This document shows positions 2 through 4,675 of a DNA stretch of 5,280 nucleotides, in pieces; within the stretch, counting starts at the first letter, position 1, and every line of letters starts with the position of its first letter. This stretch comes from a bacterium. Lineage in GTDB: Bacteria > Blakebacterota > Blakebacteria > Blakebacterales > Blakebacteraceae. The notes below the pieces were generated by a model. That model did not search any database and had not been told where the DNA came from. It saw nothing but the letters and a program-made list of their open reading frames with translations. The stretch is taken from positions 1-5,280 of the forward strand of contig JALGWK010000395.1 in the NCBI GenBank assembly GCA_025774205.1. The letters run 5' to 3'. Both the position numbers and the translations under genes were made by a program.

Positions 2-466
2 GCCGATTTCACCTTCGTCTGAGCAACCGAGTTCGCTGCTCTGGCAGAGCAGCAGCCGCGGTTCGACAAGATGGGCTGCGACGTGGTCACCGTCAGCCCC
101 GACACCAAGTTCGTCCACCTGGCCTGGCAGGCTGACGAGAAGGCCCTGGCGGACGCAAAATTCTCCATGGGCGCCGATCCGACTGCCTTCCTGCACCGCA
201 TGTTCAACGTCTATATAGAGGAAGAGGGCCTGGGCGAGCGGGGGACCTTCATCATCGATCCCGACGGGGTTGTGGCGAACATCGAGGTGAACCACCCCGA
301 CATCGGCCGGAACATTGACGAGCTGATGCGAAAGTTCAAGGCCAACCTCCACATCTCGAGGAAGACGAACACAGCCTGCCCGTCGAAGTGGAAGGACGAC
401 GGGGACGTGGACCTCCAGCCCGGCGCCGAGATGGTCGGGAAGGTCTACGAGGCTCTTAACCAGTAA
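2..466 (+). CDS. ahpC: AhpC-type 2-Cys peroxiredoxin, 5'-truncated, with predicted selenocysteine (in-frame TGA) at the peroxidatic position
   Basis: This enzyme reduces hydroperoxides in the cytoplasm. Reading from base 2 gives ADFTFV, then TGA, then ATEF, and continues open to the TAA at 464-466. The residues align along their whole length with E. coli AhpC (ADFTFVCPTEL, then a DTxFxHxAW block). Other matches are ERGTFIIDPDG, which contains the conserved active-site Arg, IGRNIDELMRK, and ACPSKWK, which carries the resolving Cys. The TGA replaces exactly the peroxidatic Cys codon. The spacing from it to the resolving Cys codon (377-379) is 119 residues, the same as Cys46 to Cys165 in the enteric enzyme. 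The TxxC motif is kept as T-F-V-Sec, while the usual Pro after the Cys is Ala. The N-terminal ~40 residues lie outside the window. Starting at the internal ATG (71) would remove the catalytic residue and is unlikely. The alternatives are a pseudogene or a sequencing error. The family call is very sure; the Sec reading is likely. Confidence 0.85.
20..22 (+). other. Predicted selenocysteine codon (UGA recoded)
   Basis: This in-frame TGA falls at the peroxidatic cysteine of AhpC. The frame is open on both sides, with clear AhpC homology upstream (ADFTFV) and downstream (ATEF). Sec in place of the peroxidatic Cys is established for peroxiredoxins such as PrxU of Eubacterium acidaminophilum. Decoding would need SelA, SelB, SelD and tRNA-Sec encoded elsewhere in the genome. 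Confidence 0.78.
35..53 (+). promoter_or_regulatory. Candidate bacterial SECIS hairpin
   Basis: Bases 35-42 (GCTGCTCT) pair perfectly with 46-53 (AGAGCAGC), leaving a 3-nt GGC loop at 43-45. The loop begins 20 nt after the TGA. Bacterial SECIS elements lie inside the coding region just downstream of the UGA, have a short apical loop with a G among its first two bases, and place that loop roughly 16-37 nt from the UGA; all three conditions are met. The hairpin also encodes part of the protein (AALAEQQ), so it serves two roles. It would recruit SelB with Sec-tRNA to the ribosome. Binding is inferred, not shown. Confidence 0.72.
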
Positions 467-1567: not shown

Positions 1568-2233
1568 GTGTCGAGCAGTCCCCGTACGTCGTGGAAATCG
1601 TATGCACTCACGGCTCTGATCGCGCTTGCCGCCGGTGGTTTCGCCGGCCGTCATGCGCCGACCGTGCCGACCGCCTACGCCTCCGACATCCTCTGGGCGG
1701 CGCCAGGTGTGGCCACAGGATCGCTGCAGGAGCAGGAGATCGCTCCCGGCGCCATTCCTCTGAAGGTCGGTTACATCAGGTCCGACATCATCATGCAGAT
1801 CCACCCGCGGGTACCCGAACTGCGGACCGCTCTTGAAGCCCAGCTCAGGGCCTGGTCCGAGCAGCAGACGGCGCTGGAGGAGCAGGTCTCGACCCTGCAG
1901 AACGAACTGCGCACCGGTCAGCTCACCCCGCTGACCCGTCGGAACAAGGAGGCGGAACTGAATCAGGCCGTGGAGAGCCTCACCACCTTCCAGACCGAGA
2001 TCTGGGTGCAGGGCGGACAGGCAGAGCGGAAGGAAGCCGAGCTGATGCAGCCGATCCTCGATGCCCTTGACGCGGCCATCCGGGGGATTGCTGAAGGAGA
2101 ACGATTCGACCTGATCTTCGACAGTTCGGGCGGGGGGCTCCTTTTCGGGCATCACTCACTCGATCTGACTTCCAGGATCCTCGAGGCGCTGGGGATCGAT
2201 CCGCCACCTTCCGGCGGAGGGGGAGTCAATTGA
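1568..2233 (+). CDS. OmpH/Skp-like periplasmic coiled-coil chaperone
   Basis: This 221-residue protein is a likely periplasmic holdase of the OmpH/Skp family, which escorts unfolded outer-membrane proteins to the BAM complex. The GTG start gives a signal sequence with basic residues, a hydrophobic stretch from about 12 to 27 (ALTALIALAAGGFAG), and a plausible signal-peptidase site after TAYA (residue 38). The mature part opens with VGYIRSDIIM (68-77), the typical Skp first strand. A long charged helical region follows (about 82-165, rich in Glu, Gln, Leu), then ERFDLIFDSSGGGLLFG (178-194), the usual C-terminal strand, and LDLTSRILEAL. It ends in a Pro/Gly-rich tail. Skp genes often sit next to bamA or lpxD; neither is in the window, and this copy leads directly into RNase genes. 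The stop overlaps the next start by one base (TGATG), so translational coupling is likely. The helical part could also suit another coiled-coil periplasmic role. Confidence 0.8.
   Translation: MSSSPRTSWKSYALTALIALAAGGFAGRHAPTVPTAYASDILWAAPGVATGSLQEQEIAPGAIPLKVGYIRSDIIMQIHPRVPELRTALEAQLRAWSEQQTALEEQVSTLQNELRTGQLTPLTRRNKEAELNQAVESLTTFQTEIWVQGGQAERKEAELMQPILDALDAAIRGIAEGERFDLIFDSSGGGLLFGHHSLDLTSRILEALGIDPPPSGGGGVN
2216..2225 (+). promoter_or_regulatory. Ribosome binding site for the beta-CASP RNase gene
   Basis: The purine-rich run GGAGGGGGAG lies inside the end of the Skp-like gene and ends 7 nt before ATG 2233. It favours ATG 2233 over the adjacent TTG at 2230 and supports coupled translation. 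Confidence 0.65.
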
Positions 2234-3207
2234 TGAAGCTCAGCTTCCATGGCGGTGTCAGGACGGTAACCGGATCGAAGCATCTGCTCGAAGTCAAAGG
2301 TCGGAACATCCTGCTGGAGTGCGGCCTTTTCCAGGGCCGGAGGGCGGAAGCACGGGAGCGGAACAGCAACTTTCCCTTCACGACCGGCGAGGTCGATGCC
2401 GTGATCCTCTCACACGCGCACATCGATCACTCAGGCGCGCTTCCGGCGCTGGTCAGGACGGGCTTCGAAGGGCCGATCTACTGCACCGACGCGACCGCCG
2501 ATCTCCTCGGAGTGCTCCTGAGGGACTCGGCGCAGATAGCCGAACGTGACGTCTATTACCTGAACAAACGGCTGCCGAAGGGGGCGCCGCCGATTGAACC
2601 CTTCTACACCCGCAAAGATGTCGAGAAAACCCTCCCGATGCTGGCTGTGCGATCGTATGACCAGACCTTTCAGGTGACCGACGAGGTATCGGCTATCTTC
2701 AGAGAAGCTGGTCACATACTGGGTGCTGCTCAAGTCATACTTAATATAGACAGCGATGAAGTACCAAACCCACCGTTCCGGTTGGGATTCACCGGGGACC
2801 TCGGGCGTGATCACCTGCCGATCCTGCGTGATCCGTATCAGATCGATGGTCTCGACGCCCTGATCATGGAGAGTACCTATGGTGACAGGCTTCACGAACG
2901 GGGCGAGGATCTGAAGGCCCTTCTGGCGGGAGTCGTGTCCCGGACGGTAGAGCGGGGCGGTCGTCTCATCATCCCGGCGTTCTCGGTAGGGCGAACCCAG
3001 CGGGTGGTCTACCTGCTGCATGAGCTGTTCAACGAAGGGCGTCTGCCGGCCATCCCCATCTACGTGGACAGCCCCATGGCCAGCGAAGCGACCGAGGTCT
3101 ACCGGCGCCATCCGGAGTGTTACGACCGGAAAGCTTCGGAATGGCTGGAAAGCGAAGACATCCTCGGCTTCAGAAGACTGACGTATAGGAGGAGTCGAAG
3201 CGGCTGA
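2233..3207 (+). CDS. Metallo-beta-lactamase/beta-CASP ribonuclease, N-terminal part of a frameshifted gene
   Basis: This belongs to the CPSF73/YSH1-like family of zinc-dependent RNA endo/exonucleases of the cytoplasm. Visible zinc-site motifs are HAHIDH at 61-66, AGHILG with His161, and TGDLGR with Asp189. ESTYGDR (213-219) and the VDSPMA segment (278-283) mark the beta-CASP domain inserted after the first half of the lactamase fold. MKLSFHGGVRTVTGSKHLLE is the typical first strand of the family. Homology runs to LGFRRLTY (311-318). The frame then ends in RRSRSG and TGA, while the missing C-terminal domain continues in another frame from 3189. The family usually has about 12 more bases between this Tyr and the EESK segment; only 2 are present, which suggests a deletion of about 10 bases. 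As read, the product lacks the last zinc-ligand region and would be inactive unless the frame is restored. It follows the Skp-like gene with a 1-nt overlap. Confidence 0.85.
   Translation: MKLSFHGGVRTVTGSKHLLEVKGRNILLECGLFQGRRAEARERNSNFPFTTGEVDAVILSHAHIDHSGALPALVRTGFEGPIYCTDATADLLGVLLRDSAQIAERDVYYLNKRLPKGAPPIEPFYTRKDVEKTLPMLAVRSYDQTFQVTDEVSAIFREAGHILGAAQVILNIDSDEVPNPPFRLGFTGDLGRDHLPILRDPYQIDGLDALIMESTYGDRLHERGEDLKALLAGVVSRTVERGGRLIIPAFSVGRTQRVVYLLHELFNEGRLPAIPIYVDSPMASEATEVYRRHPECYDRKASEWLESEDILGFRRLTYRRSRSG
3187..3192 (+). other. AGGAGG at the frameshift point of the beta-CASP gene
   Basis: The six bases form tandem AGG codons in the first frame and also a full Shine-Dalgarno match. No ATG, GTG or TTG in the C-terminal frame lies at normal distance downstream, so a simple re-initiation role is not supported. 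A -1 shift here would join both halves, although three or so family residues would still be missing. Confidence 0.4.
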
Positions 3208-3641
3208 ACGAACTGCGGATTCCATGCATCATCATTTCAGCTTCGGGCATGTGCGAGGCGGGACGTATCCTTCATCACCTGATCCATGCCGTCGGTGATG
3301 CCAGGAACACGATCCTGATCGTCGGTTACTGTGCCCCTCATACTCTCGGCCGACGTCTGATGGAGCAACAGCCCCTGATCAGGATTTTCGGACAGGAATT
3401 CCGTCTCAGGGCCGAGGTTGAGCACATCGGCGGGCTCTCCACCCACGGCGACCGGCATGATCTGCTTGAGCATATCCGGGGAATGTCGTCGCCACCCGCT
3501 ACCGTCTATGTCGTACACGGGGACGAGCCGGTGAGCCTGGCGTTTGCCAGCCACCTGCGCACCGAAGGGATCTCGAACATCCAGGTTCCACATGAAGGGC
3601 AGCAGTTCGATCTGCTGACGGGGCGGCCCCTGAACGACTGA
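3189..3641 (+). CDS. C-terminal part of the beta-CASP ribonuclease (other frame)
   Basis: The frame opens after a TAG at 3186-3188 and reads EESKRLNELR, IPCIIISASGMCEAGRILHHL and RNTILIVGYCAPHTLGRRL. It then gives VEHIGGLSTHGDRHDLLEHI, the conserved end of MBL/beta-CASP nucleases. The ISASGMCEAGR segment is a hallmark of the RNA-specificity domain. The His of STHGD replaces the more common SAHAD and supplies a late metal or active-site His. The first ATG in the frame (3249) lies inside the ASGM motif and has no ribosome site, so this is not an independent gene. It is the remainder of the gene starting at 2233; together they would give about 465 residues, normal for the family. The TGA at 3639-3641 is 20 nt before the next start. 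Confidence 0.8.
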   Translation, partial: EESKRLNELRIPCIIISASGMCEAGRILHHLIHAVGDARNTILIVGYCAPHTLGRRLMEQQPLIRIFGQEFRLRAEVEHIGGLSTHGDRHDLLEHIRGMSSPPATVYVVHGDEPVSLAFASHLRTEGISNIQVPHEGQQFDLLTGRPLND

Positions 3642-3661: not shown

Positions 3662-4675
3662 ATGAACGGGGCGCAGACTGATTTCCTGAACGCGAACCCC
3701 TCCGACAAAGGTGATTGGGTCGAGGATCTCAGACCCGGCCTGCGGGCTGAGGGTATATACGCCGTGGCCGAGTTGACTCTGCACAAGAAGAAGGACGGTT
3801 CCCCCTTTCTGCGGCTTGTACTCCAGGACCGGACCGGGTCGATCAACGCCATTCACTGGGAGGGCGCCGGATTGGCCGGGAAACTGGAACAGGGCTCGGT
3901 CGTCAGGGCGGGCGGAGATGTCGGTGAGTACCGGGGTACTCCGCAGCTCACGGTTCGGAAGATGGATATCCTTGAAGGTGACTTCCCCCGGGCCCTCTTC
4001 ATGAAGACCGGACCTGAAGATCACAATGAACTCGGAGACCGGCTCGATCGCGTCAGGGGGGGCATCACGACCCCCTGGCTGAAGACCCTTCTGGAGCGGA
4101 TCTTCGAGGGGGAGGGCCTCCTCGAGGCGTACCTGGAAGCCCCGGCCGCGAAGAACCGGCACCAGGCTTATATCGGCGGCCTGGCTGAACATAGCCTCAA
4201 TATGGCCGAGCACGCGAAGTACTGTTCAGAGTACTATCCGGAGGCGGATGGTGACCTGCTGGTGACGGCCGCGCTCCTGCACGATATCGGCAAGATTATC
4301 GAATATCGGGTTGACACCGTGATAGATTATTCGGATGAAGGGAGGCTGGAGGGTCATGTGGTGATAGGAGAACGTCTTGTTCGGCGGCAGGCGGATTCGA
4401 TCGATGAGTTCCCGGAGCCGGTCAGGATGCACCTCAGTCACCTGATCCTCAGCCACCAGGGGAGGCTCGAGCACGGCTCCCCGGTGGTCCCGAAAACGCT
4501 CGAAGCGGTGATACTCCACGCGATCGATCATCTCGATTCACGCGTGGCGACGTTCCGGGACATCAGAGACAGATATCAGGGCGAGGAACGGACCTGGAGT
4601 GACTACGATCGACTTGACGGTCACTTCTGGTATCTCGCCGCGGGACGGGAACAGACAGACTCCGCGTCCGACTGA
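3662..4675 (+). CDS. yhaM: YhaM-type 3'-5' exoribonuclease (OB-fold plus HD domain)
   Basis: This 337-residue protein is a likely cytoplasmic metal-dependent 3'-5' exoribonuclease acting in RNA turnover; B. subtilis YhaM, of similar size (about 314 residues), is the model. Residues about 22-104 form an OB-fold nucleic-acid-binding domain (AEGIYAVAELTLHKKKDGSPF through QLTVRKMDIL). The HD domain covers about 165-300. It holds HQAYIGGLAEHS (His167, His177), ALLHDIGK (His207-Asp208), EGHVVIGE (His232), LILSHQG (His265) and HAIDHLDSR (Asp289). These are the metal-site residues in the order and spacing seen in YhaM. The N-terminal start has a good ribosome site, and nothing looks broken. It follows the beta-CASP nuclease by 20 nt, suggesting a shared transcript and a shared role in RNA processing. 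The topoisomerase gene follows closely. Other OB/HD proteins exist, but the motif match here is strong. Confidence 0.88.
   Translation: MNGAQTDFLNANPSDKGDWVEDLRPGLRAEGIYAVAELTLHKKKDGSPFLRLVLQDRTGSINAIHWEGAGLAGKLEQGSVVRAGGDVGEYRGTPQLTVRKMDILEGDFPRALFMKTGPEDHNELGDRLDRVRGGITTPWLKTLLERIFEGEGLLEAYLEAPAAKNRHQAYIGGLAEHSLNMAEHAKYCSEYYPEADGDLLVTAALLHDIGKIIEYRVDTVIDYSDEGRLEGHVVIGERLVRRQADSIDEFPEPVRMHLSHLILSHQGRLEHGSPVVPKTLEAVILHAIDHLDSRVATFRDIRDRYQGEERTWSDYDRLDGHFWYLAAGREQTDSASD

Follow-up and report, generated by a model that had tools for sequence, protein, structure and literature searches.

Introduction

A peroxiredoxin containing selenocysteine (Sec), PrxU of Eubacterium acidaminophilum, was reportedly described by Soehling in 2001. 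The first-pass annotation of the DNA studied here rightly took Sec at the peroxidatic position of PrxU-type enzymes to be known: these enzymes have an NCBIfam model of their own (NF040737), and peroxiredoxins with a TxxU motif (Prx, PF00578) are entered in reviews and catalogues of prokaryotic selenoproteins (PMC13188914, PMC9312934). The family-level description in the catalogues fits the gene reported here. The branch to which the gene belongs, with the clade motif ADFTFV-U-ATE (the UATE branch), is not set apart in them as searched, and no paper naming it was found in the open literature searched, itself incomplete. Sec peroxiredoxins as a kind are therefore already known, and the UATE branch lies outside the curated equivalogs AhpC and PrxU.

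The gene shares with PrxU a Sec at the peroxidatic position, the TxxU motif, membership of the Prx1/AhpC class, and a SECIS-like hairpin at the same place, although the hairpins of the PrxU relatives sampled have another sequence and a GGUC loop. It differs from PrxU in having UATE where UPTE is usual, in possessing a resolving Cys that several PrxU relatives lack, in its sub-cut-off score, and in its separate branch in the tree. Like AhpC (TIGR03137; Salmonella), it has the length, the 119-residue spacing of the two catalytic residues and the CPAKW-type C-terminal motif of that enzyme. Unlike AhpC, it has Sec for Cys, Ala for the Pro that follows, and Arg for the active-site Pro; it also scores below the AhpC cut-off, and its genome has no AhpF above cut-off.

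Judged from its sequence, the gene very probably encodes a genuine selenoprotein, a cytosolic AhpC-class peroxiredoxin of the typical 2-Cys type in which Sec replaces the peroxidatic Cys. Its less ordinary features are that both curated cut-offs are missed, that the hairpin is near-invariant across phyla, and that Arg replaces Pro in this genus. Tentatively, and with slightly less than even confidence, we regard the FTFV-U-ATE proteins as a distinct, unnamed Sec-AhpC subfamily that spread through at least a dozen phyla along with its nearly unchanged SECIS element, and the Arg-for-Pro chemistry of this genus as undescribed.

Structure of the gene

The window (the whole 5,280-nt stretch of DNA analyzed) is all of contig C225, which belongs to a metagenomic bin of 527 contigs that is 86% complete. 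Features are listed in Table 1.

Table 1. Coordinates in the window of the Sec peroxiredoxin gene and its elements.
Feature	Position	Strand	Evidence
Sec-containing AhpC-type peroxiredoxin gene, 3' part (codons 51-204 and TAA)	2..466	+	Translation, Pfam AhpC-TSA, contig overlap
UGA read as selenocysteine (Sec57, peroxidatic residue)	20..22	+	77 distinct loci (55-79% identity) have TGA; 4 close homologues and the AhpC structures have Cys
bSECIS hairpin in mRNA, stem 35-42 / 46-53, apical loop GGC 43-45	35..53	+	Fold, covariation, entropy, bSECIS rules
Cys codon, Cys176 of full protein, C-terminal resolving Cys in ACPSKW	377..379	+	Lies 119 residues C-terminal to Sec; alignment with AhpC VCPAKW

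The translation of 2-466 is ADFTFV-U-ATEFAALAEQQPRFDKMGC...ACPSKWKDDGDVDLQPGAEMVGKVYEALNQ-stop. As had been claimed, the frame ADFTFV-TGA-ATEF continues uninterrupted to the C-terminus, the TGA being the only in-frame stop before the TAA. The translated fragment matches Pfam AhpC-TSA with 77 bits against a cut-off of 26. The mechanically called ORF is 71-466, from an ATG at 71, exactly where gene callers had been expected to start and so to hide the active site. ORF calls that stop at the TGA lose the half of the protein that carries the active site, and Sec peroxiredoxins of the UATE branch are therefore probably under-counted in metagenomes.

The 5' end of the gene is missing from the window because the contig starts mid-gene. 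It is present on contig C164 (reverse strand, locus L130, codons 1-50), whose last 114 bases match the beginning of C225 exactly. The join was made by this overlap and no single contig reads through it. Two pieces of selA, on C490 and C467, share the same 114-base overlap, which points to the word size of the assembler. The joined gene starts with an ATG after AGAGGAGAAAACTG, has an AGGAG-type ribosome site, and runs through 56 codons up to the TGA, with neither a stop nor a frameshift in the recovered part. The full protein has 204 residues. Its C-terminal resolving Cys, Cys176, follows Sec57 at the distance first given, 119 residues, which is also the Cys-Cys distance in the enteric AhpC.

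Directly 3' of the stop codon are two exact copies of CCTTCACGTAGAAGTGCCGC with 23-base spacing (466-510). Allowing for 2 mismatches at most, no further copy was found in the genome.

Relationship to AhpC and PrxU

The full protein scores 174 bits against TIGR03137 (cut-off 272) and 168 bits against NF040737 (cut-off 270). Four other clade members are also below both cut-offs, with 183-214 bits against TIGR03137; a control PrxU relative, L036, passes NF040737 with 366 bits. The best relatives of solved structure are AhpCs of the Salmonella type, such as 1n8j and 1yf1. Phylogenetic reconstruction places Cys-containing AhpC branches between the UATE clade and the PrxU-like group, a topology that makes it likely that Sec arose at least twice in the AhpC class. 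Three Cys members of the clade (L080, L109 and L117) form one group within the Sec clade, which suggests replacement of Sec by Cys in that group; many of the inner branches are weak.

Predicted function

SelB with Sec-tRNA would bind the hairpin and decode the UGA as Sec. By analogy with the mechanism of AhpC, the selenolate would attack H2O2 or alkyl hydroperoxides and become a selenenic acid. This would be resolved to a selenenyl-sulfide by Cys176 of the partner subunit, and a system resembling thioredoxin and thioredoxin reductase would reduce the selenenyl-sulfide. The thioredoxin-type reductant is a guess, made because the profile search found no AhpF above cut-off in this 86%-complete genome (best match 101 bits, cut-off 503). 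Nor is the gene linked to an ahpF. In an anaerobe or microaerophile, Sec would probably confer fast turnover and protect the enzyme from irreversible over-oxidation.

The mixed Sec-Cys pair proposed in the first-pass annotation is supported, with two qualifications. Sec in an AhpC-class enzyme stands, as a case of a known kind. The pairing is deduced from conservation of the Cys: most clade members have the C-terminal CP motif, and the resolving Cys is absent from at least six (L121-L125 and L129), in which the C-terminus reads DEGIPxxW.

In other genomes the neighbors of clade members include desulfoferrodoxin (13 loci), a Fur/PerR-type regulator (10) and rubrerythrin (6); in the Nitrospirota loci the gene adjoins desulfoferrodoxin, a Fur-family regulator or rubrerythrin. 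Such a neighborhood fits oxidative-stress defense in anaerobes. The other genes of the window encode a DUF4886 lipoprotein, an OmpH-like protein, a beta-CASP nuclease, a YhaM-like nuclease and topA, and no functional hint for the peroxiredoxin was found among them. The beta-CASP ribonuclease gene is frameshifted at 3186-3191 (ORFs 2230-3207 and 3249-3641) and is 10 bases shorter than in the same-genus relative L050, where the frame is intact; this is either an assembly error or gene decay.

In 105 of 107 rows, the residue seven positions before Sec is the active-site Pro. The two members of this genus alone have Arg, and their motif is RxxxTxxU in place of PxxxTxxC/U. The Arg is encoded by codon 50 of the joined C164/C225 gene and, in L050, by the corresponding codon (about 2997-2999). 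The two separate assemblies use different Arg codons (CGT and CGG), and the substitution is therefore real and inherited. It could alter or reduce activity. Its restriction to this genus leaves room for a selenoprotein that is no working hydroperoxide reductase here and has become a sensor, a chaperone or a protein with some other thiol or selenol role. We consider this improbable, as Thr, Sec and the resolving Cys are all kept and purifying selection is strong.

Conservation of the in-frame TGA

Scanning GTDB genomes yielded 80 relatives. The catalytic codon is TGA in 75 of these, Cys in four (TGT in L080; TGC in L109, L117 and L118), and lost to truncation in one (L119). With the window and L022 there are 77 distinct TGA loci, which according to their records span about 12 phyla: Nitrospirota, Acidobacteriota, Planctomycetota, Myxococcota, Krumholzibacteriota, Rokuibacteriota, Binatota, Gemmatimonadota, Bipolaricaulota, Calditrichota, Spirochaetota and Thermodesulfobacteriota. 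An in-frame UGA thus stands where homologues have Cys, as in a selenoprotein gene; the homologue check that had been proposed for this codon came out in favor of Sec.

A genuine TGC or TGT misread as TGA would be the simplest artifact, in a metagenome bin, at a contig end, and in a window where another gene is 10 bases short with a broken frame. C164, the same-genus relative and 75 further loci all have the same TGA, beside a frozen hairpin (see below). Its conservation in independent assemblies rules out the misreading, to which we attach a negligible probability. The earlier statement that a single read error does not explain the codon was hence correct. One argument offered for it, that the next codon is GCA (Ala) and not the usual Pro, carries no weight: the Ala is there, in the window as in all 77 distinct TGA loci, and it is a trait of the clade that occurs in the four Cys homologues as well.

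Were the TGA a real stop, the gene would be a truncated one or a pseudogene whose product, from the ATG at 71, lacks the active site, as the mechanical ORF call implies. Comparison with L050 gives pN 0.14 and pS 0.36 before the TGA, and pN 0.12 and pS 0.62 after it. The low pN relative to pS indicates that both sides are translated under selection and excludes a chance frame. This selection and the open upstream frame of the joined gene, together with sites conserved across phyla, rule out a pseudogene, which we hold to be hardly conceivable.

Within the clade, one AhpC-type enzyme exists naturally in Sec and in Cys form, and with or without a resolving Cys; comparing these forms can test the benefit of selenium to a peroxidase.

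SECIS hairpin

The hairpin, which the first-pass annotation did not include, has 8 bp, starts 12 nt past the TGA, and spans 12-31 nt downstream of it, with 20 nt from UGA to loop. Published rules for bSECIS elements specify a loop of 3-9 nt, a stem of 4-16 bp, a UGA-to-loop distance of 16-37 nt, a G in the first two loop positions, and an MFE of at most -7.5 (PMC13188914). The hairpin is within the limits of all of these. The MFE of positions 17-70, -23.3 kcal/mol, is only 2.1 SD better than that of shuffled sequences, so it is conservation and covariation that carry the argument for the hairpin.

Pairing is kept in 99.7% of cells over 75 distinct rows, and three pairs are changed on both sides (14 such cells). 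None of 500 shuffles reached the covariation score, which is lost when the partner strand is slid. Compensatory variants of the stem are GCUGCUCU/AGAGCAGC, GCCGAUCU/AGAUCGGC and GCGGCCCU/AGGGCUGC. Some of them alter amino acids: in L121-L125 and L129, Glu-Gln has given way to Gly-Leu, and L022 has acquired Asp and Arg. Because these changes alter the protein too, protein conservation alone cannot explain the pairing. The subgroup without the resolving Cys (L121-L125 and L129) is the one with the rebuilt stem GCGGCCCU/AGGGCUGC (GCAGCCCU/AGGGUUGC in L122).

Synonymous variation collapses only at the hairpin codons. Codons 5-10 past the TGA have a third-position entropy of 0-0.6 bits, and the surrounding codons mostly one of 1-1.9 bits (lowest about 0.5). 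The mean number of pairs is 7.97 of 8 in 78 TGA rows (77 distinct), whereas it is 3.7 in TGC rows and 4.5 in TGT rows; homologues whose catalytic codon specifies Cys have a degraded hairpin. A further asset of the clade is its SECIS element, which differs by hardly a base between phyla. An Rfam search with the hairpin gave no match, the sole hit being a chance one downstream. PrxU relatives L033, L036-L039 and L045 also have a hairpin in this position; its loop is GGUC and its stem varies in sequence.

Selenocysteine machinery and UGA usage in the genome

The search for sel genes that had been suggested found selA, selB, selC and selD in the genome, selD only as two non-overlapping pieces that are each below cut-off. 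The selA gene is divided between C490 and C467 (353 and 138 bits). SelB is recognized by its C-terminal domain (63 bits) in an open frame of 809 residues, and the tRNA-Sec scores 66 bits and has the anticodon UCA according to ARAGORN. One selD piece has an in-frame TGA of its own (CAG-U-ASKL). The interpretation in the first-pass annotation is supported and was largely right; none of the three findings it named as fatal to it applies, as the 77 TGA loci exclude a misread Cys codon, sel genes and tRNA-Sec are present, and the recovered upstream frame is unbroken.

A genome-wide reassignment of TGA to Trp, Gly or Cys, which in-frame TGAs in several genes might suggest, is ruled out by the intact window ORFs that end in TGA (603-1409, 1442-2233 and 3662-4675) and therefore mark UGA as still a stop in this genome; with tRNA-Sec and SelB present, and the in-frame TGAs examined confined to catalytic positions of redox proteins and to SelD, we give it next to no credence.

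TGA codons at active-site positions are present in L002 (C355), L004 (C364), L134 (C491), L135 (C513), L136 (C461) and L141 (C412). These genes encode PrxU-like and ResA/TlpA-like proteins and SelD, and most have a downstream hairpin. The gene on C355 is a second, PrxU-like Sec gene (GDFTFV-U-ATEV) without the resolving Cys. ResA/TlpA-like genes have the TGA in WUPPC (C364), WMUGAC (C491) and PTUGGC (C513). From these sequences, the genome looks rich in selenoproteins.
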